Shown here piece after piece: positions 23,234 to 38,364 of a DNA stretch of 64,000 nucleotides. A program made the translations under genes and the position numbers. The notes beneath the pieces are model-generated. The model was not told the origin of the DNA. It ran no database searches and worked only from the letters and a program-made list of their open reading frames with translations. The stretch's first letter is position 1; the number at the start of each line of letters is the position of its first letter. Where the stretch lies: the NCBI GenBank assembly GCA_016931575.1, contig JAFGEO010000072.1, forward strand, positions 62,001-126,000, read 5' to 3'. This stretch comes from Bacteroidales bacterium (GTDB lineage Bacteria > Bacteroidota > Bacteroidia > Bacteroidales > UBA10428).

Positions 23234-26200
23234 CTAATTTCTTTTAATTGGAATCCTGATCGATAACAACCTCCTCAGTACGTCGAAATAAAGCATAACG
23301 TAGAGCAGGGTGGTTAGGATCCAGATTACTACCATATTGAACCAGTATGTTTCAAAATACTGACCCCAGAAATGCTTTTTAGGGGCATACAGATGCGAAC
23401 GGAAACTAAGTTTATGTTCTGGCACCGGGTATTCATAGATGGGATCAATATGCTGGATAAACTGATTCTCATAAACGAGGATTTTATTCTTTTCATATAC
23501 CTTTTTCAGGATGTCAGCGATACCTTCATTGTAATAGTCATTGAACTTATCGTGATATGCTTTCTTTTTGGCAGTTCTCTTTTTCGGATCGGTTTCAAAG
23601 TCCCCGGTAGCTTTACCGACCATGTTCATGCGATACAGGTTGGCTTCTCTGAACAGGTTGCTATAGAAATTCTTTAGCGCTTCAAGGTAAGTTTCGAAGA
23701 GTTTGCACTCTTCGAGGCTAAAATTGTCAGGCGATATCTTATCAAGATCGAAGAAGTAACAATCCGTTTCACTGAAGCTTACGGCGTCTTTTACCGTTGA
23801 ATCAATGGCATTCAGGTAAAGCTGCGTCTGCAGCGTGTCCGTTTTCGAATTGAAGTCCATTTCAATCCGGTCCAGGCGCTGATTTTCCTTCCGGGCTTCA
23901 TGGATAAGCAATAGGATATTGTTCCTGAAGTTTTCGTTTTTCGGTCCTTTTTGCGCATTCTCACTTTTCTGAATGGTCTTTTTCACAGAATGCAGACTGT
24001 CGCTCATAGACGATAACCAGTATACTTTCTTGAAATCAGAGAAGCTTTCGATGCGTTCCACATCATAATATTCCCGGGTATGATCATTATACTTGAACTG
24101 ATGAACCATCAGAGCTTCATATCCCCATTTGGTAACCATCATTTCAGCAATAAAGGGAACCTTATCGACCCTTCCGATGGTCCGGTTAAGTTTGTCGAAG
24201 CTGAACATGGCACCGCTCAGGATCATCATGGGGATCATCAGGAGCGGGATCAGGATATAAATGGTCACGGCAGAATTAAAAGTAGCCGAGATATTCAGGC
24301 CTAGGAGGTTGGCAAAGGCAGCAGTAGAAAACAGGGCAAACCAATAGATGAACCCCATACCTTTAATTCCCAGAATGCTGTTGGCGATCAGAACGAAAAG
24401 AAATGTCTGTATTGCGCTAATGAGAAACAGGATAAAAATCTTTGAAATAAGGTAGCTGGACTTGCTTAGGTTAAGGAATTTTTCCCTTTTCAGGATCTTT
24501 CGGTCTTTCACAATTTCTTCGGCACTGACCATTAAACCCAGGAACAGGGCGACAATCAGGGACATGAAAATAAAGATATGGATGTTGCTGTTTTCCCTGA
24601 AAATATACTTATTCGAATTCGGATCTTCGATAAAGCGTATGAGGTATGAGAGGATAAAGCCTAGAACAGGGGCCTCAAGCAGGTTTAAAGTAACATACTG
24701 TGTATTACTAATTTTAGACAGAAAATCACGAATACCATAGATTCTCAGCTGGGTAAGCCAGTTTGGGATATTAAGGGATTTTGGAGGATTTTCGGTAATC
24801 TCCTTGACTTCTTCCTTTTTGAAATTGTTCAGGTAATGCTCTTCCCACTTCTCGGGGGCTACCTTCCGGAGATCAGTATAGTTACCGAATTCATCGACCA
24901 CATGCGCTTCGATGATGTTAAAGAGGAGTTCCGGGTTTACATTACCACAGGTAGGGCATTCGCCGACCTCGGAGTTAATCTGGGCGTCCATCCGTTTGAA
25001 ATACATTACGCCCTCTACGGGATTTCCGCAATAGATGAGATACCCGCCTGTATCGAGGATAATCATCTTGTCGAACATCTTGTAGATATCGGAAGAAGGT
25101 TGATGGATGACTACAAAGATCAGCTTGCCTTTCAGACTGAGTTCCCTCAACAGGTCCATCACGTTTTCTGAGTCCCTGGAGGAAAGCCCGGAGGTAGGTT
25201 CATCCACAAAGAGGATGGAAGGTTCACGGATCAGTTCCAAGGCAATATTCAGTCTTTTACGCTGACCCCCGCTGATGGTTTTTTTCAGGGGAGAACCCAC
25301 TTTCAGGTCTTTTCTGTCAAGGAGTCCCAGGTTGGTCAGTGTTTTATGGACGAGGTCGGTAATATCCTTGTCTGATTTATCCTTGAAACAGAGTTTTGCG
25401 TTATAGTAAAGGTTTTGAAATACCGTAAGTTCTTCGATGAGCAGATCGTCCTGTGGGATGAGACCAATTACACCCTCAAGTTTTTCCTTTTCTTTATGCA
25501 GGTCAATGCCATTGATGATAACTTCACCTGTGGTGGGCGTGTCAATTCCGGATAGTACATTCAGGAGCGTGGTTTTTCCGGCACCACTGGCTCCCATAAT
25601 ACCGATCAGGCGGCCATGACCTTCGGAGAAGGCTATGTTGCGAAGGCCCAGGTTTCCATTAGGAAATTGGAAGCTTAGATCGCGAACAGTATAGGATATC
25701 TTGCTGGAGGTAATATCCGCCATAAAGTGTGCAACAACATCGCTGTAATAAACAGGTGCTCCCTTGGGAAGTTTTACAGTGCTGCCGTTGGCATAGAGGT
25801 ATATACGTGAATAATTGATCGGTAATCCATTAAGGAAAAGCTCTTCATTTCCGGTATACTTTAGGAAGTAGAGATCAACGCTCTGAATCCGGAGGATGAA
25901 AATGTTACCATCCAACTGTTTGGTAGTGATGATTTTAGCATGCTTAAATTTTTCCTTCTGATCATTAATAATCAGGATGTTCTCGTTGTCAAGTTCTGAA
26001 AATTCATTTTTGACAACAAAGGATTCAATGCTGCTAAATTCTTCCTGGGTAATATTAAACACTTCGGCAACCGTATTCAGGATTGCCATACGCTGATCTG
26101 TAAATTTCCGGTCGGCATTAATGATTTCAAAAAGCCGCACCAGGGCTACCACTTTTTGTTTTTGGGTCAGGGTTTTGTTGATTTTCTTACACAGCCCCAG

Positions 26201-26434
26201 AATCCGTACAGAATCTTTTACAGATGTGAGCTTATTCTTTTTAGGCTCCTCTGCTGTTTCACTCAGTCCTGCATGCTGCTCAAACAGTGCATAATACTCA
26301 GATACTTTTTCTGCCGTTAGCTGTTGCTGCAGAAAGTTCTTTACGTATTCGACCTGGGTTGATTCAACACCTTCATCTTGTTTTGCCACAATGGCAAACA
26401 ACTGCATCAGAGCTTTTAGAATTTCCTCACTCAT
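23234..26434 (-). CDS. Large ABC transporter (ATPase-permease fusion) with TerB-like N-terminal domain
   Basis: 1066-aa ABCG-like half-transporter. Residues ~1-135 are helical and TerB-like (LMQLFAIVAKQDEGVES, NADRKFTDQRMAIL). A beta-rich stretch ~150-240 may be FHA-like, as in other bacterial ABC-2 fusions. The ATPase follows: Walker A GASGAGKTT at 281-289, signature ISGGQRKRL at 387-395, Walker B ILFVDE at 407-412. A CPTCGNVNPELLF motif follows the ATPase. Helices at ~590-790 form the ABC-2 membrane domain, interrupted by a long charged soluble extension before a final helix (VVIWILTTLLYVMLYF). It is 36 bases downstream of the SiaC-like gene, an unusual partner. The substrate is unknown. 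Confidence 0.85.
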   Translation of the reverse strand: MSEEILKALMQLFAIVAKQDEGVESTQVEYVKNFLQQQLTAEKVSEYYALFEQHAGLSETAEEPKKNKLTSVKDSVRILGLCKKINKTLTQKQKVVALVRLFEIINADRKFTDQRMAILNTVAEVFNITQEEFSSIESFVVKNEFSELDNENILIINDQKEKFKHAKIITTKQLDGNIFILRIQSVDLYFLKYTGNEELFLNGLPINYSRIYLYANGSTVKLPKGAPVYYSDVVAHFMADITSSKISYTVRDLSFQFPNGNLGLRNIAFSEGHGRLIGIMGASGAGKTTLLNVLSGIDTPTTGEVIINGIDLHKEKEKLEGVIGLIPQDDLLIEELTVFQNLYYNAKLCFKDKSDKDITDLVHKTLTNLGLLDRKDLKVGSPLKKTISGGQRKRLNIALELIREPSILFVDEPTSGLSSRDSENVMDLLRELSLKGKLIFVVIHQPSSDIYKMFDKMIILDTGGYLIYCGNPVEGVMYFKRMDAQINSEVGECPTCGNVNPELLFNIIEAHVVDEFGNYTDLRKVAPEKWEEHYLNNFKKEEVKEITENPPKSLNIPNWLTQLRIYGIRDFLSKISNTQYVTLNLLEAPVLGFILSYLIRFIEDPNSNKYIFRENSNIHIFIFMSLIVALFLGLMVSAEEIVKDRKILKREKFLNLSKSSYLISKIFILFLISAIQTFLFVLIANSILGIKGMGFIYWFALFSTAAFANLLGLNISATFNSAVTIYILIPLLMIPMMILSGAMFSFDKLNRTIGRVDKVPFIAEMMVTKWGYEALMVHQFKYNDHTREYYDVERIESFSDFKKVYWLSSMSDSLHSVKKTIQKSENAQKGPKNENFRNNILLLIHEARKENQRLDRIEMDFNSKTDTLQTQLYLNAIDSTVKDAVSFSETDCYFFDLDKISPDNFSLEECKLFETYLEALKNFYSNLFREANLYRMNMVGKATGDFETDPKKRTAKKKAYHDKFNDYYNEGIADILKKVYEKNKILVYENQFIQHIDPIYEYPVPEHKLSFRSHLYAPKKHFWGQYFETYWFNMVVIWILTTLLYVMLYFDVLRRLLSIRIPIKRN

Positions 26435-26470: not shown

Positions 26471-26851
26471 TTATCCTGAATAAGGAACTTGTTCAAAGGG
26501 AACATCAACAATATCGGCATACTCCTCGCCGGCTTCTTCCATATCCTCGTCATCTTCCGGGAAATGCCAGCGAATAAGCACATCATTGCCGTTTTCGTGG
26601 ATTTCTTCCAGTTTCATCAGGATGTCAAGTAATAATTTTGAAGAAGCTGTATTAAAATATACCAGCTTAAAGTTGAAGATTGTTTTTGGATTGGGATCCT
26701 GAGCATACTCCTCAAGCCATGATAAAACCGGGTCATAAAAGGAGGCTACATCCTCGGGTAATGATCGCCCGGATATTTCCATAAGTTCAGTTTCCTTATC
26801 CAATGTTACCTTGGGTGTATCTTCAGTTCCTTGAATTTTGATAGTTTCCAT
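26471..26851 (-). CDS. SiaC-family regulatory phosphoprotein (DUF1987)
   Basis: 126-aa cytoplasmic protein of the DUF1987/SiaC family. SiaC is a switch protein phosphorylated by the kinase SiaB and dephosphorylated by the phosphatase SiaA in Pseudomonas. The family motifs are present: TPKVTLDKETELMEISGRS, EDVASFYDPVLSWLEEY and the central VYFNTASSKLLLDIL. Its Thr 68 sits at the same motif and number as the phosphorylated Thr reported for SiaC. The C-terminal end is acidic (EDDEDMEEAGEEYADI). Kinase- and phosphatase-like genes lie immediately upstream. No diguanylate cyclase, the known SiaC target, is encoded nearby; the ABC transporter is the nearest downstream gene. Confidence 0.85.
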   Translation of the reverse strand: METIKIQGTEDTPKVTLDKETELMEISGRSLPEDVASFYDPVLSWLEEYAQDPNPKTIFNFKLVYFNTASSKLLLDILMKLEEIHENGNDVLIRWHFPEDDEDMEEAGEEYADIVDVPFEQVPYSG

Positions 26852-26867: not shown

Positions 26868-27449
26868 TTAATTATCCTCTCTTGAGATAGTCGAAGTTAA
26901 TAAAAAGAATGATGTATCGTTTGAAATGGGAAGGAAGTGATATTCCAGTTCTTTTCCGGTCTTTCGTTTAATATCAATGAAACCAAGACCGGCACCGCCC
27001 TTTTCGGACAGACGGCCCTCTTTCATTTGTTTTTTGTAGAGGCCTTTAAGTTCATCTTTGTCCATTTTATTAATGGTTTCCAGCATATTTGTCAGTTCCT
27101 CAATTTTGTCATTTTCTACTGCATTTCCGGTCGTGACACTATACTCATTTTCTCCTTTACTAACCAGGAATATTCCTCTTCCGCTGAAAAGGAAATCGCT
27201 CGAAGTAAAATCGTCAGCATGTTTACTTATGTTTTGAAGACACTCAACCATAACATGAAATACTTTCCGCTGTACATTGCCAGATTCATCTTCTTTGGCC
27301 ATGTTCGATTCAGTTAACGAAGTAAATGCCTTAGTGATTTGGTGTGTTATTTCACCTTCATACACCAGGGTGATTTCATGGGCCTTCATGGATTTGTAGA
27401 ACTCATAAACAAATTCAAGAAAGCCTTTTACATCTTTTTTATTGTCCAT
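26868..27449 (-). CDS. SiaB-family protein kinase (GHKL-fold)
   Basis: 193-aa protein resembling SiaB/DUF6272 kinases, which phosphorylate the SiaC-like switch protein. Visible features are the helix FLEFVYEFYKSMK, the VMVECLQNISKHADD segment corresponding to the N-box of GHKL ATPases, and the glycine loop EKGGAGLGFIDIKRKTG for nucleotide binding. The start ATG at 27449 is chosen because a start at 27488 would overlap the phosphatase gene and adds no family sequence. It is followed by the SiaC-like gene after 16 bases and preceded by the phosphatase after 22. The gene order phosphatase-kinase-switch mirrors siaA-siaB-siaC. Confidence 0.8.
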   Translation of the reverse strand: MDNKKDVKGFLEFVYEFYKSMKAHEITLVYEGEITHQITKAFTSLTESNMAKEDESGNVQRKVFHVMVECLQNISKHADDFTSSDFLFSGRGIFLVSKGENEYSVTTGNAVENDKIEELTNMLETINKMDKDELKGLYKKQMKEGRLSEKGGAGLGFIDIKRKTGKELEYHFLPISNDTSFFLLTSTISREDN

Positions 27450-27471
27450 AATACACCTGTTTTTATTATCA

Positions 27472-30096
27472 TTAAAACTCAATGCCAATCAGCAAAACAT
27501 CGTCAATAGGTTTGTTATCACCCATCCAAGCCATGAAGTCTTTCGCAAAGAAAGTATTAAATTCATCCATAGTCAAGTCCTTATTCTCAACAATGTTTTC
27601 ACGGATTCTTTTAGGCGAATATTTCTTTGTTTCCGGTCCGCCAAGCTGGTCAGTCAAACCATCAGAAAAGAAGAATATTTTATCACCGCTCTGGATGTTT
27701 ATCACATAGTTGGTAAAATCTTTCTCGGGCTTCTTTCTGTGCGGGATCCCTCCAATAGCTTTGCGGTCGCCTTTAAACTCCTGCAATTCACCGTCGCGAA
27801 GCATATAGAGTGGGCGGTGAGCGCCAGCAAACTGCAATTCATTCTTTTTAAAATTTATCTTACAAAAGGCAATATCCATTCCGTCACGTGCTTCCGCATC
27901 ATTATCTTCCTGCTTTAGGGTTTTCCGCACGGCATAATGGAGGCCGTCAATAATATCGGAGGCTGTGTGCTCACCCGGGTGGTCGGCTATATTATTGAGG
28001 AGGAAATATCCGATAAATGAAAGCAGGGCACCGGGAACTCCATGTCCTGTACAATCGACAGCAGCGATATAAATATTGTCATCCTTCTTCATGTACCAGG
28101 GGAAGTCACCGCTCACCACATCACGAGGGCGGTAGAAAATGAATGACTTGGGAAGATCCTGGCGAATGACTTTATTATCGGGAAGGATGGAAGTCTGGAT
28201 GCGTTGAGCATAGTTGATGGAATCTTCGATTTTCCGGTTTTTGTCCTGAATTTCCTGCTCGATCCGTTTGGCCTCGGTGATGTCGTGACCCACAAAAAGT
28301 ATTGTTTCCAGTTCATTCTCATTGAATTCAGGGATGGCGTTAAAGCTCATGATGCGCTCGTCTTCATCCTTACCCTGGATTTTGGCAGGTATGGTGATCT
28401 CTGCTGTTGTCTTCTGTGGATTGGTTTTAATTTGTGCGATGGTATCGCGGAAATAATTAAAGAGCACGTCAACAAAGTTTACCTCGTTAAGGGTTTTGTT
28501 AATCAGGTCCTTTGTATCAATGCCTGTATAGGTTTCCACAACAGGGTTTGCATAGAAGAATTGCCCTACTGTTGACAATCGCAGGATCATATCCAGTGAG
28601 TTTTCAGACAGGGCCTGCATTTTACTGCGCATACGTTCCTCTTTTTCCGCACGCTTCCGCTCGGTGATATCGGAGGAGTTGAGGATGATACCTTTAATCG
28701 CAGGATCTTTCAGGAGGTTACGGCCGGTAGTTTCCAGAAATATCTTCTGGCCGTTTTTCTTCATGTAAGTATACTGGATGGAAACAGGTTCGCCCGGATT
28801 GGCAAGAAGTTGTTTAAACATCTGGCGCATAGCATTCTCGCCCTTACGGGTGAGCCGATCCATGTCTTTTCCACCCATCATCTCTTCAGGGGTATACCCC
28901 AGGATCTTGATTACTGACGGACTTTCATAGGTCAGTTCCATATTTTCGCTGTAGATGGAAATGATCTCGGAAGCATTTTCAAGCAGCGAGTAGAGACGTT
29001 TTTGGGCGTTTTCAACCTTCTGGATATTTGCTTCCAGCTGTTCGTTGGATTTTTGAAGCTCTTCCTGTGTTGCCCGCATCTCCTCAGCGTTTTGCCGCAG
29101 CTGTTCTTCATTTTCCTGAAGCTCAGCAGTCATTTTCTGAGATTCATGGAGAAGTTGCTCGGTACGCTGGTTCACCTTCAGGTTAAAGATGGTTCTGGCA
29201 ATGATTTCACCAAGCTCGATCAGGAAGCGAATGGACTGCTCAGGAATCTCTTTATCTGTGGAAGCAAATTCGAGTACTCCCTGCAATTTTTCATCAGAGA
29301 TCAGGGGAACCAGTAAGAGGCTCCGGGGTTTTTGATCACCCAGGATGCCGGAAGTTATCGTGACATAATCATCCGGAATTTCGTTCCGGTAGATGTATTC
29401 CATTTCATAGGCACAGGCTCCGATCAGGCCGTGCCCAAGCTTAAATTCCTGGTTAATGAATTTTGTACGGTTATAGGCGTAGGTGGCTACGTTTTGAAGT
29501 ACTTTCCGGTTCTCGTTATAGAGGTAAAGGGCTCCCTGAACGAGGTTAACATACCTGACAAGTGAATGGATCACTTTGTTCGAAAGCTCGTCAATCTTGC
29601 TGTTCGTTCTCAGAATATCGGATACAATCTCCTTTCCTTCTGTTATCCAGCTTTGTTCAGATTCTTTTTTATGGTTGGCCAGGAGGTTCTCCCGCATGAT
29701 CAACAGCGATTGTGCGAGTGCATCATCTTTACTTGCCAGGTTCAACGTGGTACTGTAATTACCCTCACCAATCTGTTTGGCAAATTCAGCCATCTCCTGG
29801 AGTCGGGCATCCCGGTAGCTTAACTGTTCATCGAAATCGGAGGCTATGGTCTTCTGCCTGTAATAGGTAAATGCGACAAGTGCAATGAATACCAGGGGGA
29901 CAAGATCAGCTATGTACAGGGCCGGATTGTTTTGGTGGAGCTGAATTAGTGCATCAAGCCTGACCGGACTGTTATGCTTTGCAATTTCAAAGATCCAGGA
30001 AAGAATCGGTAATAAGATACCAATAAAGATTGCGATGGGGAGGGGATTCGAATCTTTACCGAAAAATTTGGTATGTAAGTCCAAAAGTTTTGACAT
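27472..30096 (-). CDS. SiaA-like sensor phosphatase: TM-GAF-coiled coil-PAS-PAS-PP2C/SpoIIE
   Basis: 874-aa membrane-bound phosphatase. Two N-terminal helices (IAIFIGILLPILSWIF; LVPLVFIALVAFTYY) precede a GAF domain (~160-315). A Glu/Gln-rich coiled coil spans ~313-357 (ENEEQLRQNAEEMRATQEE). Two PAS domains follow (EIISIYSENMELTYESPS; LSTVGQFFYANPVVETYTG). The SpoIIE/PP2C domain carries the metal-binding motifs VVSGDF, AAVDCTGHGVPGAL and FFSDGLTDQ. ATG at 30096 is preferred over 30141, which would overlap the upstream gene. By position and domain it is the likely dephosphorylating partner of the SiaC-like protein. Its input would be small ligands or redox through GAF/PAS. Confidence 0.85.
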   Translation of the reverse strand: MSKLLDLHTKFFGKDSNPLPIAIFIGILLPILSWIFEIAKHNSPVRLDALIQLHQNNPALYIADLVPLVFIALVAFTYYRQKTIASDFDEQLSYRDARLQEMAEFAKQIGEGNYSTTLNLASKDDALAQSLLIMRENLLANHKKESEQSWITEGKEIVSDILRTNSKIDELSNKVIHSLVRYVNLVQGALYLYNENRKVLQNVATYAYNRTKFINQEFKLGHGLIGACAYEMEYIYRNEIPDDYVTITSGILGDQKPRSLLLVPLISDEKLQGVLEFASTDKEIPEQSIRFLIELGEIIARTIFNLKVNQRTEQLLHESQKMTAELQENEEQLRQNAEEMRATQEELQKSNEQLEANIQKVENAQKRLYSLLENASEIISIYSENMELTYESPSVIKILGYTPEEMMGGKDMDRLTRKGENAMRQMFKQLLANPGEPVSIQYTYMKKNGQKIFLETTGRNLLKDPAIKGIILNSSDITERKRAEKEERMRSKMQALSENSLDMILRLSTVGQFFYANPVVETYTGIDTKDLINKTLNEVNFVDVLFNYFRDTIAQIKTNPQKTTAEITIPAKIQGKDEDERIMSFNAIPEFNENELETILFVGHDITEAKRIEQEIQDKNRKIEDSINYAQRIQTSILPDNKVIRQDLPKSFIFYRPRDVVSGDFPWYMKKDDNIYIAAVDCTGHGVPGALLSFIGYFLLNNIADHPGEHTASDIIDGLHYAVRKTLKQEDNDAEARDGMDIAFCKINFKKNELQFAGAHRPLYMLRDGELQEFKGDRKAIGGIPHRKKPEKDFTNYVINIQSGDKIFFFSDGLTDQLGGPETKKYSPKRIRENIVENKDLTMDEFNTFFAKDFMAWMGDNKPIDDVLLIGIEF

Positions 30097-30106
30097 GCTA
30101 TACGAC

Positions 30107-30883
30107 TTATTTAGACTTTTGAATTTGTACAATTTTTTCACCGGAACTTAACCCGATTTTATTGAAAAGCTCTGTCCAATATTCCATATCATCTTTAATA
30201 AAGGTAGCAATTTCAATGATACCAATAGAACTCTTTTTATGGATAATTGGAATGATAATGAGTGTTTCAGGCTTTGCTTTTCCTAATCCGGATTCAATGG
30301 TAAAATACGTTTCAGGAATATCCCGGATTATCATTACTTCTTGTGATGCTGCTGCCTGCCCGTTAAGGTTTTCACCTGCTTTAAAACCTGCAGGTTCTGT
30401 CTCCCCGGTTAGTGCGAAGCCGGACACAAACTTAAATTCGTTCCCCTGCTGAAGATAGACTGCTCCCAGGGATCCCTGGATTTCGTTTGACAATTGCACG
30501 AGTAATTTTTGTGCAAAAGCATTGGCATCCTTAAATCTTCCTGTCGGAATGATTTTGTTCAGCATCTCCTCCAGGTCTTCATTTTTGTTAATAACTTCTT
30601 CAACTTTCGATTCGGATTCGGCCATGATTTTGGCTTTCTCCACGTCAAGCTGATCCTGAACCTGTTTTTGGATCAGTCGGGGATCGATAAGCTTTCCGGT
30701 CAAAATATACAGGTATCCGACGCAAGCCAGCGCGATGGGTAAGAAGATAAACGGCCAGGCTGAAAAGTGTACACCATTGTTTGACCCCTGATTCCAGAAA
30801 GAAGCTGAGAGAAGGAGAATCGATATCACAGTCGCCAGGCTTGCAATAATCAGTTGTATTCTATGTTGGTTGCCCCAATTCAT
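30107..30883 (-). CDS. Membrane-anchored GAF-domain protein
   Basis: 258 aa. Two N-terminal membrane helices (IASLATVISILLLSA; FIFLPIALACVGYLYIL) are followed by a charged coiled coil (~75-110) and a GAF domain (~120-250; LSNEIQGSLGAVYLQQG, TLIIIPIIHKKSSIGIIEIATF). No output domain follows. The GAF strand pattern is close to that of the downstream SiaA-like phosphatase, so the two may have arisen by duplication or work as partners. It starts 2 bases after the CheB-like gene, and the phosphatase gene starts 10 bases after it. It is probably a sensor or scaffold subunit of this operon. Confidence 0.8.
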   Translation of the reverse strand: MNWGNQHRIQLIIASLATVISILLLSASFWNQGSNNGVHFSAWPFIFLPIALACVGYLYILTGKLIDPRLIQKQVQDQLDVEKAKIMAESESKVEEVINKNEDLEEMLNKIIPTGRFKDANAFAQKLLVQLSNEIQGSLGAVYLQQGNEFKFVSGFALTGETEPAGFKAGENLNGQAAASQEVMIIRDIPETYFTIESGLGKAKPETLIIIPIIHKKSSIGIIEIATFIKDDMEYWTELFNKIGLSSGEKIVQIQKSK

Positions 30884-30885
30884 AT

Positions 30886-31443
30886 TTATAGTTTTTGGAG
30901 GAATCTAATTATTTGGTCAGTCGAATATACGTAGTCCACTTTTGTAAGTTGCAGCGCCGATTCAGGCATGGTCTTCACTTCACTCTCAGTCGGATCCTGA
31001 ACAATCGTGACCCCTCCGTTATCAGCTACTTTTTTAAGTCCAAAAGCGCCATCCCTGTTGGCGCCTGACAGGATAATACCGATCAGCTTATCCCGGTATG
31101 CATTTGAAGCAGTGATAAAGGAAAGATCGATGGAAGGTCTGGAGTGGTTTACAGGTTCGTCAGTTGAAAGCGCTATCCGGTTAGCCAGCTCAACAAACAT
31201 ATGGTAGTTTGCCGGGGCCAGGTATGCCTTCCCCGGCTTCAACTGCTCCTTATCACAAGGTTCCAGAACCGGGATATTGGATTTAAGGGACAGAGCCTCC
31301 ACAAAGCCTGAGCGGACATGTTTCAGGCGGTGCAGGCACAACATTACCGGAAGGGGGAAAGTTGGATTGAGCGAGTTAAGAATTCTCGTCACAATCTGAA
31401 AACTCCCTGCAGATCCACCGATGATCAAGGCTCTGTACTTCAT
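30886..31443 (-). CDS. cheB: CheB-type methylesterase without receiver domain
   Basis: 185-aa stand-alone CheB catalytic domain. The Ser-His-Asp triad is readable: GGSAGS (S11), LCLHRL (H38) and SGANRDGA (D131). The supporting segments GKAYLAPANYHM, RPSIDLSF and QDPTESEVKTMPESA are also canonical. The family hydrolyses methyl-glutamate or deamidates glutamine in chemoreceptors. The usual N-terminal receiver domain is absent, so activity would not be controlled by CheA. No chemoreceptor, cheA, cheW or cheY is found in this window. It follows the degenerate CheR gene by 2 bases, which implies translational coupling. Confidence 0.9.
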   Translation of the reverse strand: MKYRALIIGGSAGSFQIVTRILNSLNPTFPLPVMLCLHRLKHVRSGFVEALSLKSNIPVLEPCDKEQLKPGKAYLAPANYHMFVELANRIALSTDEPVNHSRPSIDLSFITASNAYRDKLIGIILSGANRDGAFGLKKVADNGGVTIVQDPTESEVKTMPESALQLTKVDYVYSTDQIIRFLQKL

Positions 31444-31445
31444 AA

Positions 31446-32276
31446 TTATTTAATTCTTCTTTTATAAACACTTTCACTGGGCACTACCTCCTCAAAGAGG
31501 GTAATTGAATTTTGCTGGCCGGCAAGACATTCCTGTAATCCGATTATAAAAGTACCATTTGCAGAGAGGGAATCATACACCTTTCCGAGTACATATTCCT
31601 GGTATTTTGGATTAAAATAGATCATCGCATTCCTCATCAGGACAAGTTTCACATTTTTAGGATGGTTATCCAGGCTTAGGTTATCCCGGATAAATTCAAC
31701 ATTCTCGATCAGAGAGGAATTCCGGTAAGCATTATATTTTTCATTCCGGAAATAATCGCTGAAATCATATTCTCCCTGGAAGCGCTTATAGTTTTCCATA
31801 GAGACTTCAATTTTCTTCAGGGGATATTCACCTGACCTGACCAGTTTGAGGGATGCATCGCTCAGGTATGAAGCGTAAACTTTTACCCTGTGCGTCAGGT
31901 TGAGCTCTTTAATCAGGATCGCCAGGGTATACAGTTCGCTTCCCGAAATACAGAAGGGGACCCAGATCTTAAAATTCATAATGGATTTTTCGTCCAGCTT
32001 GCCGAAATATTCTTCCCTTATCCATCGCCAGACTGAAGGATCCCGGAACATTTCTGTTGAAGGAACCAGTAGCTGATGGATGAAGGTATCGAAGAAATCC
32101 TTCTGATCCAGCAATTTTCGGTATAAGCCTTCGGGACTGACCAGGTTGTTTTTGGCAATAATATGTTCAAGCCTGTACTTCAGTGAAGTAAGCGCAAAAT
32201 TCCCCAGGTCAAGTTGAAAATTGTTATTGACCAGTCTGATAATTTCCCGTATATCAACAATACCAAGTTCTGTCAT
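31446..32276 (-). CDS. CheR-like protein with degenerate SAM-binding site
   Basis: 276 aa, CheR fold along its full length: N-terminal helical part (SLKYRLEHIIAKN, PSTEMFRDPSVW) and a Rossmann part. The SAM motifs, however, are broken. The AGCSTGEE loop reads PFCISGSE at 107-114, the acidic ATD(L/I) strand end reads ASYLS at 135-139, and the late CRNVxIYF reads MRNAMIYF at 214-221. It probably no longer methylates and may regulate or dock the intact CheR encoded two genes upstream (34496-35335). Between them lies the transmembrane GAF/PAS sensor. It is followed by cheB with a 2-base gap. Confidence 0.85.
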   Translation of the reverse strand: MTELGIVDIREIIRLVNNNFQLDLGNFALTSLKYRLEHIIAKNNLVSPEGLYRKLLDQKDFFDTFIHQLLVPSTEMFRDPSVWRWIREEYFGKLDEKSIMNFKIWVPFCISGSELYTLAILIKELNLTHRVKVYASYLSDASLKLVRSGEYPLKKIEVSMENYKRFQGEYDFSDYFRNEKYNAYRNSSLIENVEFIRDNLSLDNHPKNVKLVLMRNAMIYFNPKYQEYVLGKVYDSLSANGTFIIGLQECLAGQQNSITLFEEVVPSESVYKRRIK

Positions 32277-32295: not shown

Positions 32296-34476
32296 CTATT
32301 TATTCAGGTTCATGATATTCAGGATGCGCATTGTATGTCCATCCCTGGATTTAATCGGAGAGAAGGTATTCTTCATCTCCAGTTGTTTCTTATTGATTTG
32401 AACCGTTTCTGTTATTTCTATCGTTTTTCCTTCTGCAACATTGGCAAAGAGCAGTGAGTCAGCCCTGCTTTTTTTGCCGAACACCTGGATATGGGTTTTT
32501 CCAATCACCTGATCCGCATGTTGGTTAAGAAGGTAGAGTAGCCGCTCATTAACCTTAATGATACTTCCATCAATATCGTACTCTACCACATAAAATGCCT
32601 GACCGATGGCGGAGATTATACCTTCCAGATCTTCTTCCCTGCGGGCAGATTCCTCCTGTGTTGCTTTCAGTTCTTCCATATTCTGCCTCATTTCCTCTTC
32701 TTGTTCCGCCATCTCTGCTGCCTGCTGTTGTGATTTTTCCAGCAATTCTGAAGTGCGGGAATTTGCCCGTGCATTTATTATCGAGGAGGCCAGGCTTTCA
32801 GAGATAGTTTCTCCCAGTTCGATCTGGTTATGATCAAAGGGTTTCAGAGAGGCAATTTCAAGCACTCCTATTAATACCCCTTCGTGCATCACGGGTAGGA
32901 TAAGGAGGTTGTTTGGGGGTGCATCGCCCAGACCTGAAGTGATTTCGATATAGTCATCGGGTAATTTTGTCAGGTATATGGTCTTTTTCTCCTGGGCACA
33001 GGTCCCCACCAGGCTTTCACCTTTCCGTATTTCTTTGCTAAGGTATTTTTTCCGGTTATAGGCAAAAGCTGCTTTAAGGTGAAGGATTTCATCGTCCTCA
33101 TTGTTGAGTAGAAAGAGCCCGCCCTGTATAGCGTTCAGGTATCGGACAATTTCCTTAATGAAGATATCCGCGAGTTTATCCAGGTTGTCCGAATTACTCC
33201 GCATGATATCGGAGAATTTGGCAATACCTTCGTTCTGAAATCGGCGGATGCGGTTTTCTTCATGGTATTTCAATTGTTCATCGCGGGCTTTGCGCATGTT
33301 TTCTTTCAGCGCGATTAGCGTTTTTCCAAAGGTATCATTCCTGCCCTGAAGGTCGATATCGGCCTGAAACTTTTGTTTCAGCAAGCTATCCACAAATCTT
33401 TTTTTCTCCGTCAGTGAAGCATGGATAGTATTGAGATTGGAATTGAGGCTTACGAACTCAGCCGCTCCCTCCAATGTCACTGGCTCAAGATTCAGTTTGC
33501 CCTTTGCCAGGTTCTGGCTATACTGAATGGATTGCAGCAGGGGCTTGCGGATCTGGTTGAAAAACAGGTAAGAGATGAAAAGGAAACCCAGGGAAAGGAG
33601 CAGGATGAAACCTAAACCAATGAGAAGCACGGCGGATCTCGCTTTGTTCATCTCGTGATTCCAGCTGTTCTTGAAAGCAAGATAGTCTGCCATCATTTTT
33701 TGATAGTCCTGTTCCATGGTGCCGAAAAGACTTTCTTCCACAGCTTCATCTCCCAGGCGCTGGGAAAGGGCCTGGATTTCTTCCAGAGCGGTCTTGTACT
33801 CCGTTAGCTGCGCATTAAGCTCCGAGCTTAAAAATGGGTCTGCCTCGTACAGGGAAGGGTGAGAAAGTATATCGTTAAGGATACCGAGGATTTCATTAAA
33901 GGCCACATAGTTACCCGCAAACAGGTATTCAGATTCAAGTTTTTTCAGCTGGGAGAATAGCTCTCCCACCCTTGGCAGGTTCAGGGTATAAATCGTATTT
34001 CCTGCTTCCGTTGAAATATTCCTGAGAGCCAGTATTTTTCCGCTGTTCCTTGCGCCACGTTCCTGCATGGCGAGCCTGGTCTGGTCGAAATCAATGCTGT
34101 AGTTCTCAATGGCGGCTTGCAAGCTATCCTTTTTTCCGGATTTCTGCAATTTTTTCCGGATACCCGGCTTCTCAGAAAGTTGATTCAGAGAATCGAGCAC
34201 TGCAGCCGATTGGTAATCAAATTTCAGAGTGAAGTCATTTTCAGCATCTATAAAAAATCGATCGTTTGGTCCGGTGCTTTGCAGGAAGCTGAGGTAAGTG
34301 GAATGCAGACCGGTAATGTCCCGTTCTAGGCGAATCACTTTGGTAGTTGTCTGCTGAAATTCAGAAAGCTGCCCGTTCATCAGCAAAATGGTGCCGGTCA
34401 AAATGCCCAGATATACCACAAAGATGAATACCTGCAGCAGGAATTTGTATTGAATATGAATTGATTTTAAATTCAT
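32296..34476 (-). CDS. Transmembrane sensor: helical periplasmic domain-HAMP-GAF-coiled coil-PAS
   Basis: 726-aa receptor-like protein. TM1 is at ~12-32, an all-helical periplasmic domain of ~245 residues follows (four-helix/CHASE3-like; many Leu heptads), and TM2 is at ~280-303. A HAMP-like linker (NQIRKPLLQSIQYSQNLAKG) leads to a GAF domain (~415-560), an E/Q-rich coiled coil (~580-609; AEQEEEMRQNMEELKATQEE) and a final PAS domain. There is no kinase, MCP hub, cyclase or other output. It lies between the two CheR-type genes, so it is the most likely methylation substrate; the E/Q-rich helix would be the place to look. This is inference. Confidence 0.8.
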   Translation of the reverse strand: MNLKSIHIQYKFLLQVFIFVVYLGILTGTILLMNGQLSEFQQTTTKVIRLERDITGLHSTYLSFLQSTGPNDRFFIDAENDFTLKFDYQSAAVLDSLNQLSEKPGIRKKLQKSGKKDSLQAAIENYSIDFDQTRLAMQERGARNSGKILALRNISTEAGNTIYTLNLPRVGELFSQLKKLESEYLFAGNYVAFNEILGILNDILSHPSLYEADPFLSSELNAQLTEYKTALEEIQALSQRLGDEAVEESLFGTMEQDYQKMMADYLAFKNSWNHEMNKARSAVLLIGLGFILLLSLGFLFISYLFFNQIRKPLLQSIQYSQNLAKGKLNLEPVTLEGAAEFVSLNSNLNTIHASLTEKKRFVDSLLKQKFQADIDLQGRNDTFGKTLIALKENMRKARDEQLKYHEENRIRRFQNEGIAKFSDIMRSNSDNLDKLADIFIKEIVRYLNAIQGGLFLLNNEDDEILHLKAAFAYNRKKYLSKEIRKGESLVGTCAQEKKTIYLTKLPDDYIEITSGLGDAPPNNLLILPVMHEGVLIGVLEIASLKPFDHNQIELGETISESLASSIINARANSRTSELLEKSQQQAAEMAEQEEEMRQNMEELKATQEESARREEDLEGIISAIGQAFYVVEYDIDGSIIKVNERLLYLLNQHADQVIGKTHIQVFGKKSRADSLLFANVAEGKTIEITETVQINKKQLEMKNTFSPIKSRDGHTMRILNIMNLNK

Positions 34477-34495: not shown

Positions 34496-35335
34496 CTAGC
34501 TTTTATAGTAAGCATGTCCTTTCTTTTGAAATTTTACCGAATATGATCCAAGAATGGTTTCATGCATTCCCAGGACCAGTGCTCCATTGTCGTACAGGTT
34601 TCTGTGGAAGAGGTCAAATACCTTGCTTTGAAGGTTGTAATTAAAATAGATAATGACATTTCTGCACAGGATCAGGTCAAACTTCACATACAGGGTGTTT
34701 CCCTCCTTTACAAGATCATGTTTCTTGTAGATTGGTTTTTCCCGAAGCATGTTACACATCTGAATGGTATCTGAGGGTTTGTCAATGGTGAAGTACTTTT
34801 CATAGGGCACGTCATAATACTCTTCGTAGTTATAGGGATTTTCCTTGATGACTTTGTCAAAATTATCCAGGTAACCTATGTTAAAACGATATTTGTATTC
34901 TCCCTTTTGAGCCTGAGCAATAACATCCTCATTCAGGTCGGTGGCATAGAGCTTTGTTTTCTCCAGTAGTCCCATTTCATTCAGAACGATCATCATCGAA
35001 TACACTTCCTGCCCGGTTGAGCAGCCGGCATGCCAGATGTTGATAACGGAGTTGTTTTTCAATTTTGGGAGAATGGCATAACGCAGGGCATGCCAGACCT
35101 GGGGATCGCGGAACAGTTCGGTGGTATTAACGGTGATCTCCTTGATAATTTTTTCCACAAACTCCTGATCATTCTTGATCTTACTGATTAAAATGTTCAG
35201 GGTCATTTTATTGTCAGCCAAGATTTTTGTAAGTCTTCTTTTAAGCGATTTCTCAGAATACTCACTAAAGTCATATTTGGAAGAAGTCTTTAAGGCGTAT
35301 ATGAATAATTGAAAATCCTGGTCTGTTACCGTCAT
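34496..35335 (-). CDS. cheR: CheR-type protein-glutamate methyltransferase
   Basis: 279-aa methyltransferase with intact SAM-binding motifs: AGCSTGQE at 103-110, YATDLN at 130-135, and CRNVIIYF at 224-231. The N-terminal CheR domain (ELFRDPQVW) is also present. The enzyme would transfer methyl from SAM to glutamates on a receptor. It is the first gene of the long minus-strand operon; a candidate -7 box lies at 35449-35456. The next gene, a transmembrane sensor, starts 19 bases after its stop. No chemotaxis kinase or adaptor accompanies it, so the target is probably the GAF/PAS sensors of this operon. Confidence 0.92.
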   Translation of the reverse strand: MTVTDQDFQLFIYALKTSSKYDFSEYSEKSLKRRLTKILADNKMTLNILISKIKNDQEFVEKIIKEITVNTTELFRDPQVWHALRYAILPKLKNNSVINIWHAGCSTGQEVYSMMIVLNEMGLLEKTKLYATDLNEDVIAQAQKGEYKYRFNIGYLDNFDKVIKENPYNYEEYYDVPYEKYFTIDKPSDTIQMCNMLREKPIYKKHDLVKEGNTLYVKFDLILCRNVIIYFNYNLQSKVFDLFHRNLYDNGALVLGMHETILGSYSVKFQKKGHAYYKS

Positions 35336-36858: not shown

Positions 36859-38364
36859 TCAGCGGGAGATTGTGAAGGAAAATTCTGATCCCTGGCGCAA
36901 GGAGGAGCTTACTTTAATAGATCCGTTCATCAGCCGGACCAGTTCTTTTACCAGGGTCAGACCCAGACCGGCTCCCTCATACTGTCTGGCAATGGTATCA
37001 TCAACCTGGGTGAAGCGTTCAAAGATATGAGGGATGTCTTTCTCATCGATTCCGATGCCTGTATCCCTGACAAAGAAGCTGATCTCATCAGCGGTCTGGA
37101 AGCAACCAAGGTGTATACTTCCCTGTTCTGTAAATTTAACGGCATTGGAAAGCAGGGCCAGAATGATTTGTTCCAGTCTGTAATCATCCTGACAAAGGCT
37201 CACTTCGGCACAGCCTTTACCCATAATCAGTAAGGGTTTGATGGCTTCTTTTTTACCCTCTTCCTCCAGCATCAGATGCAGGCTCCTTTCGTTTTTATTC
37301 ATAAAATCCAGCAGGCTGAATTTCTTCAAACTAAGTACCAGCTGGTCGCTCTCGATTTTCGAAAGATCAACGATATCCGTGATCAGGTGAAGAAGTCGTT
37401 TCCCATTCCGGATAATGTAATCGATGTAATGAGCAGTCTTCGAATCCTCCGGAGCCGATTTTCTGAGAAATTGACTGAACCCCAGGATACCGTTTAGAGG
37501 GGTTCTGACCTCATGGGAAAGATTAGCCAGGAAAGCCGATTTCAGATGATCGGCTTTTTCGGCAGCCTGCTTTGCTTTTCGCAGTGCTTTCTTTTCTTTT
37601 ACCAGGTCGGTAATATTCCTGCCAATCCCCATTATGCCAATAATTTCGCCGCTGCTATTGCGAAGCGGGATCTTTGATGTTGAGAACCAGAGGCGGTTAT
37701 GATTCGTATCGACAACCTGTTCCGTCAGGTTGATCTGGGCCTTCCCGGTACGCATAACCTTCAGCTCATCATTCCGGTATTTCAGAGCGAGTTTCTTTGG
37801 GAAGAAATCGAAATCGGTTTTTCTGACCACCTCATTCGCTGAAAAAGCCCCCATAAGCCTGGATACGGACAGGTTTGCCAAAATGAACCGACTCTCAGTA
37901 TCTTTTATAAAAATGTTATCCGGAATATTGTTAATAAGTTCATTGATAAGGTGCATATGATTACTCACATCTTCTGTTGCCTGTTTAAGTTCCGAAATGT
38001 TAATGATCTGGCACAGCAGGTTCTCTTTTTCACTCATTCCTGAAGAAAGCAGGGTGAAATGCACATTCGCCCAAAAACTTAGTTTTTCATCCCACCCGAG
38101 AAGTGAAGTAAATTCATAGGGACCATCAATTTCCCTGAGTTTACTGATCAGCCTCTCCAGGTTAAAGGCAGGGGAGTATTTGAAGAGTTGATGAATATCC
38201 ATTCCATCCAGGCATGCGGGATCGCCAACCAGTTGACAGGCAGATTTGTTGGCTTTCATGATGATCCCTGAAGGAGAAATCAGGAGTAGTCCCGTGACGG
38301 ATAGCTCGAATAGGTTTTCTTCTTCAACCTGGAAGGAAACGGGTGTCAGCTTTTTTTCTCTCAT
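36859..38364 (-). CDS. PAS-PAS sensor histidine kinase
   Basis: 501-aa kinase without membrane helices, so probably cytoplasmic. Two PAS domains (~17-130 and ~140-265) lead to HisKA with H284 in LSHEVRTPLNGILGF, then HATPase with the N-box ILALLSNAVKFT, G1 VRDTGIGI, F-box IFERFTQ and G2 EGAGLGLTLV. No receiver domain is attached, and no response regulator gene is adjacent. It is an orphan kinase within this window. The flanking genes (flippase-like and DUF3108-like) give no clue to its pathway. Confidence 0.92.
   Translation of the reverse strand: MREKKLTPVSFQVEEENLFELSVTGLLLISPSGIIMKANKSACQLVGDPACLDGMDIHQLFKYSPAFNLERLISKLREIDGPYEFTSLLGWDEKLSFWANVHFTLLSSGMSEKENLLCQIINISELKQATEDVSNHMHLINELINNIPDNIFIKDTESRFILANLSVSRLMGAFSANEVVRKTDFDFFPKKLALKYRNDELKVMRTGKAQINLTEQVVDTNHNRLWFSTSKIPLRNSSGEIIGIMGIGRNITDLVKEKKALRKAKQAAEKADHLKSAFLANLSHEVRTPLNGILGFSQFLRKSAPEDSKTAHYIDYIIRNGKRLLHLITDIVDLSKIESDQLVLSLKKFSLLDFMNKNERSLHLMLEEEGKKEAIKPLLIMGKGCAEVSLCQDDYRLEQIILALLSNAVKFTEQGSIHLGCFQTADEISFFVRDTGIGIDEKDIPHIFERFTQVDDTIARQYEGAGLGLTLVKELVRLMNGSIKVSSSLRQGSEFSFTISR

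Follow-up and report, generated by a model that had tools for sequence, protein, structure and literature searches.

A CheR paralogue with altered SAM-site residues and a retained catalytic pair in a conserved gene cluster of Bacteroidales

What can a CheR paralogue do when the residues of its SAM-binding site have been replaced and an intact CheR is encoded close by? The question is raised by a gene at positions 31446-32276 of a 64,000-nucleotide stretch of a Bacteroidales genome (GCA_016931575.1, contig JAFGEO010000072.1), hereafter the window. A first-pass annotation had read the gene as a CheR paralogue in an open frame, with three substituted motifs and an otherwise preserved fold, and had proposed a pseudo-methyltransferase that binds receptor tails or regulates CheR. 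The open frame is real, though it lies on the minus strand, where it encodes 276 amino acids; the plus strand of the same interval has many stops. The product, called pseudo-CheR here, is a stand-alone protein without fusion to CheW and comes from one of three CheR genes in the source genome.

The assignment rests on a Pfam match, an AlphaFold2 model, structure comparison and residue alignment, and these agree with the annotation that the CheR fold is kept. The Pfam CheR model (PF01739, cut-off 27) matches pseudo-CheR at 81.3 bits and the intact CheR at 126.4 bits. The AlphaFold2 model of pseudo-CheR has the CheR fold with a pLDDT of 89.3; the AlphaFold model of the neighboring intact CheR was poor (pLDDT 50.2). 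The solved structure closest to the pseudo-CheR model is that of Bacillus subtilis CheR with SAH (5ftw; Z 26.0, rmsd 3.1 over 252 residues). Salmonella CheR (1af7) follows at Z 21.1, and methyltransferases other than CheR do not exceed Z 14.3. Both solved CheRs share with pseudo-CheR not only the fold but also the length and the N-terminal helical domain.

Where the intact CheR at 34496-35335, also on the minus strand, retains AGCSTGQE, ATDLN and CRNVIIYF, pseudo-CheR has PFCISGSE, ASYLS and MRNAMIYF. Residues are numbered here as in Salmonella CheR by transfer through the alignment, and the aligned positions agree with those that we take to be Arg98, Glu129, Asp154, Arg230, Asn231 and Tyr235 of that enzyme, Asp154 being the residue that binds the ribose of SAM. 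The first two substitutions were read correctly: Asp154 is replaced by Y137 and the SAM loop AGCST by P107-F108-C109-I110-S111, with F108 in place of the loop glycine at position 123. The third motif had been counted as lost as well, which the alignment contradicts, since Arg230, Asn231 and Tyr235 are kept as R215, N216 and Y220, as are Arg98 (R78) and Glu129 (E114). Arg98 and Tyr235 are given as the catalytic residues of CheR in the portions of PMC3447774 that we cite. This pair is present in pseudo-CheR and the SAM-site residues Gly123 and Asp154 are absent.

The same pattern was found in relatives. A profile search of 295 genomes of the order, with loci taken from the best matches (to about 174 bits) and from a selection of the rest, placed pseudo-CheR in at least 78 genomes that span about 35 family codes by hand count. 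This figure includes one genome (G200, contig C101, locus L225) in which the frame is broken or misassembled. Within the window's own family, 19 genomes besides the window's own gave a pseudo-CheR match among 23 searched, the best in each being 47-62% identical; none was found in G006, G012 and G014, and in G006 and G012 the contig stops inside the sensor gene that belongs to the same cluster. Sorting by profile score gave 94 pseudo-CheRs, the window's included, and 86 CheRs linked to them. Asp154 is missing in 92 of the 94 pseudo-CheRs versus none of the 86 linked CheRs. Its place is taken by Ser (38), Cys (13), Tyr, Val and Thr (8 each) and others, with Glu not within the nine commonest residues. 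The loop glycine is missing in 80 of 94, where Glu, Asn or Asp often stands instead; 82 have Pro at position 122, and Cys229 has become Phe or Tyr in 84. Retained in these same proteins are Arg98 (94/94), Arg230 (92/94), Asn231 (93/94), Tyr235 (83/94) and Glu129 (86/94, the remaining eight having Asp), and all 86 linked CheRs carry Arg98, Gly123, Glu129, Asp154, Arg230, Asn231 and Tyr235. Judged by these alignments, pseudo-CheR is a CheR in which the cofactor half of the active site has been lost and the catalytic half kept. A pseudo-methyltransferase, as first proposed, is well supported at the sequence level by a loss common to orthologues under purifying selection, and SAM binding has presumably been lost with it. 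One member within the pseudo-CheR clade (L117, 4663-5493, plus strand) has Asp at 154, an altered loop and Cys for Tyr235; the Asp is possibly a partial reversion.

In a tree of 44 rows, drawn at random after omission of six pseudo-CheRs with long branches and of the source genome's third CheR, all 21 pseudo-CheRs form one clade (support 97/95) and the 14 linked CheRs a separate one (100/99). Branches are longer for pseudo-CheRs than for CheRs. Identities within the family point the same way, at 46-62% for pseudo-CheR versus 70-88% for CheR among near-full-length rows. The deepest pseudo-CheR branch is L127 of genome G149, which still has ATD, and that genome carries a CheR of the linked type on a different contig (L227). 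The full-length frame of pseudo-CheR is maintained within the family, and for one close genome pair dN/dS is 0.055 for pseudo-CheR and 0.058 for CheR, other pairs being more diverged and several of them saturated. Orthologues with intact motifs, which would have made the window's copy a sporadic mutation, were not borne out; such a mutation is ruled out by the shared loss in relatives, the single clade and a dN/dS of about 0.05.

The likely state before pseudo-CheR arose is seen outside the order. In a sample of 345 genomes of the phylum, Asp was retained at all 29 match loci examined outside the window's genome. Three genomes outside the order (G362, G459 and G499) have a comparable cluster in which the one CheR is intact and pseudo-CheR is absent, with the genes arranged as CheR-CheB-GAF-SpoIIE-SiaB-SiaC-ABC, and G074, within the order (L129), likewise has a single-CheR cluster. 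These clusters make it most likely that pseudo-CheR, whose single clade points to one origin, arose when the single CheR of the cluster was duplicated and one copy then lost its SAM site.

The wider cluster, which the first-pass annotation overlooked together with the retained catalytic pair, comprises nine genes that lie head to tail on the minus strand of the window, either overlapping or separated by no more than about 36 bases. The intact CheR (34496-35335, 279 amino acids) comes first and is followed by a membrane sensor of 726 amino acids (32296-34476), which has a GAF domain, a weak PAS match, a coiled coil after the GAF domain and membrane helices recognized by eye. Then come pseudo-CheR (31446-32276), a CheB methylesterase domain alone, without a receiver (30886-31443, 185 amino acids), and a small GAF protein without the coil (30107-30883, 258 amino acids, helices again by eye). 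The remaining genes encode a SiaA-like GAF/PAS/PAS/SpoIIE phosphatase of 889 amino acids that has the coil (27472-30141), a SiaB-family kinase (26868-27488; NF038262, 174 bits, cut-off 85), a SiaC-family phosphoprotein (26471-26851; PF09345, 144.2 bits) and, last in the conserved order, a TerB-ABC transporter fusion (23234-26434). The SiaA model matches the phosphatase at 165 bits, under its equivalog cut-off of 700, and no GGDEF domain, as in the diguanylate cyclase SiaD, was matched among the cluster's proteins.

Conservation of this arrangement is strong in the family. The order CheR, sensor, pseudo-CheR, CheB, GAF protein is identical in 18 of 20 family regions, the other two stopping inside the sensor gene, and in the 18 the genes for SpoIIE, SiaB, SiaC and the ABC transporter come next wherever the contig extends far enough. 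An intact CheR of the same strand lies upstream of pseudo-CheR at 83 of the other 93 loci, either within 250 bases (54 loci) or at 2.1-2.8 kb with the sensor between (29 loci). This arrangement is not seen at the remaining ten: a contig end truncates five of them (L052, L102, L108, L147 and L230), and five show no evident truncation (L127, L148, L150, L180 and L222). At least four of the latter (L148, L150, L180 and L222) have no CheR in the stretch examined, and L148, L150 and L180 have CheB and/or Sia genes beside pseudo-CheR. The Sia part is absent or elsewhere in many genomes of the order, so the core is CheR, pseudo-CheR, CheB and the GAF protein. The gene for the TerB-fused transporter follows SiaC wherever the contig reaches in the family regions, and in these bacteria the SiaC switch may have this transporter as its output.

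Of the two functions first suggested for pseudo-CheR, partnership with CheR is supported by the pairing at 83 of 93 loci, but the binding of receptor tails is not. In the window's family, matches to both MCP and CheW were missing in 7 of 23 genomes, and five of these seven carry pseudo-CheR (G002, G013, G016 and G018, which are 92-94% complete, and G020, 83%). In the rest of the order, 12 of 57 pseudo-CheR genomes (the carriers outside the window's family whose loci had been examined at that stage) have neither MCP nor CheW, and nine of the 12 are at least 90% complete. Pseudo-CheR is thus retained in 17 genomes without a recognizable MCP or CheW, which indicates that receptor tails are probably not its target; MCP tails as its sole target are unlikely. 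MCP and CheW are present in most other pseudo-CheR genomes, including the window's own, which has 13 MCP and 5 CheW matches. The third CheR of that genome lies on a different contig near a CheW match, suggesting that the chemoreceptors are probably served by a CheR of their own.

If not the chemoreceptors, the cluster may tune other signaling proteins by methylation, and candidates are found within it. The sensor and the phosphatase have in common a segment directly after the GAF domain, with the consensus AEELxxQEEEMRQNMEELQATQEE; its motif reads RQNMEELKATQEE in the sensor (32650-32688, minus strand) and RQNAEEMRATQEE in the phosphatase (29059-29097, minus strand). Across 20 different proteins, chosen for holding the motif, 13 of 67 columns are invariant. 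Glu pairs recur every seven residues, and in the phosphatases the first of them is either EE or EQ. Among the proteins of pseudo-CheR loci, 39 of 40 sensors and 59 of 61 phosphatases have the coil, mostly with EE or EQ pairs seven residues apart, counts that are biased upward because both classes were recognized by similarity to coil-bearing proteins; none of 67 small GAF proteins has it. Methylation sites of MCPs are E/Q pairs spaced by seven, and the MCPs of the window's genome contain such pairs (e.g., VEEISSTMEQ). The coil profile matched none of the MCP helices examined in that genome, and against the PDB it found no MCP at E < 1 (6db1 came at 1.2). Homology between the coil and MCP methylation helices is therefore unsupported by profile searches, and the likeness lies in the spacing of Glu/Gln pairs only. 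We propose, from this spacing and from the genomic association described below, that the coils of the sensor and the phosphatase may be methylation substrates.

Of 295 genomes of the order, 71 contain an exact DNA pattern for the coil core (reversed control, 0). All 71 are CheR-positive, compared with 154 of 295 overall (Fisher 3.5e-25, with kinship ignored), and 66 of them have pseudo-CheR. In the other five no SAM-dead pseudo-CheR was found, indicating that the coil tracks CheR rather than pseudo-CheR as such. The phylum sample gave the pattern in 4 of 345 genomes, namely the window's own and the three single-CheR genomes. Nine coil proteins examined outside the cluster have GAF, PAS and sometimes weak Cache or propeller matches.

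Collectively, these results are compatible with a model, to which we give an even chance, in which pseudo-CheR is a non-catalytic partner of CheR, likely a substrate platform, in a methylation module independent of chemoreceptors. Loss of the cofactor side, retention of Arg and Tyr, a near-fixed partner gene and a single origin fit a dead partner subunit that would hold the substrate while CheR carries out the reaction, as METTL14 does for METTL3 in the cited passages of PMC6112310. Pseudo-CheR would bind the Glu-rich helix of the cluster's GAF-coil proteins, the sensor and the SpoIIE phosphatase, and would present it to the neighboring intact CheR or activate that enzyme; the stand-alone CheB would remove the methyl groups. 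How strongly the phosphatase acts on SiaC would then depend on coil methylation, giving adaptation without chemoreceptors. The physical partnership of the two CheRs and the effect of coil methylation on the Sia switch are both putative. That the output may be a partner switch is suggested by the set of phosphatase, SiaB and SiaC, which are likewise clustered in the SiaABC(D) system of Pseudomonas aeruginosa, as far as the cited sections of PMC7647112 describe it (SpoIIE/PP2C phosphatase, SiaB-family kinase and SiaC-family protein). In contrast to that system, the Bacteroidales cluster has no diguanylate cyclase and has in addition CheR, pseudo-CheR, CheB, an extra GAF protein and an ABC transporter. 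A bolder form of the model, which we advance tentatively and hold to be less likely than not, is that CheR, an obligate SAM-dead paralogue acting as its substrate platform and CheB together place adaptation marks on the heptad Glu pairs of GAF coils, including that of the SpoIIE/Sia phosphatase, and on whole sets of sensors where coil proteins are many; methylation memory would then have left chemotaxis.

Several other explanations were weighed against the partner model. Pseudo-CheR might be a reader or decoy that occupies the helices of the partner model and either protects them from CheR and CheB or signals their methylation state. Retention of Arg98 and Tyr235 without a cofactor site would agree with this, as would the faster evolution of pseudo-CheR relative to CheR, which the sensors share, but the near-obligate pairing with CheR and CheB suits a complex equally or better, and we consider a reader unlikely. 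It is quite improbable that pseudo-CheR still transfers methyl groups through an altered or weaker SAM site. Glu129 is kept and L117 has Asp at 154, so some binding of SAM could still be possible, and Arg98, Arg230, Asn231 and mostly Tyr235 are present, with ATD kept on the deepest branch, L127; against an enzyme stand the many unrelated residues that replace the Asp elsewhere, the replaced loop glycine and the change of Cys229 to Phe or Tyr in 84 of 94. A decaying pseudogene would account for the missing SAM motif, but its chance is negligible: the full-length frame, a dN/dS of about 0.05 and near-invariant residues over about 35 family codes refute it.

There is a slim chance that pseudo-CheR uses the CheR fold to sense a ligand. 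The precedent is a catalytically dead CheR-like domain that senses SAM in the spirochaete CheW-CheRlike protein, or CheWS, as described in parts of PMC7666581 and PMC10653840; it is the nearest CheR relative that we found in print and, like pseudo-CheR, is conserved and judged non-catalytic. According to those parts, it is fused to CheW, binds SAM through retained residues and has lost the equivalents of Arg98 and Tyr235, whereas pseudo-CheR stands alone with the reverse pattern and is in this respect its mirror image. In the Treponema denticola domain the double mutation E297A/D321A left no measurable SAM binding, in the experiments cited from PMC10653840, and, to judge by the order of motifs, D321 would be the counterpart of Asp154. 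Nature would have separated the active site of CheR into its two halves, the cofactor half being kept in spirochaetes and the catalytic half in Bacteroidales. CheR with an N-terminal TPR domain has also been suggested to be inactive, in the cited portions of PMC3447774, where it is the catalytic residues that lack conservation; no TPR match was found in pseudo-CheR. Compared to the solved CheRs, which also have Arg98, Glu129, Arg230-Asn231 and Tyr235, pseudo-CheR is without Asp154 and the loop glycine and in most cases has an aromatic residue for Cys229.

For the partner model itself the closest likenesses are functional analogies from unrelated biology. METTL14 beside METTL3 (PMC6112310) and the prozyme beside trypanosome AdoMetDC (PMC5201418) are dead paralogues that act as platform or activator for the live enzyme. 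In the open-access papers searched, nothing was found about such a CheR paralogue, about the coil motif or about a cluster of CheR with Sia genes. If the model is true, adaptation by CheR/CheB methylation extends beyond chemoreceptors, and CheR, like METTL3, works with a dead partner subunit. The proposal points to specific glutamates in two specific proteins and is hence directly testable by mass spectrometry.

Two further observations concern the surroundings of CheR genes. A PAS histidine kinase is encoded upstream of the cluster (36859-38364, minus strand), and a similar kinase precedes CheR in L053 and L054; this kinase may be loosely linked to the cluster. Other genomes of the order carry a second, separate CheR-CheB set (L152-L179, e.g., L155, L157 and L158), in which CheR is intact and lies beside large histidine kinases.
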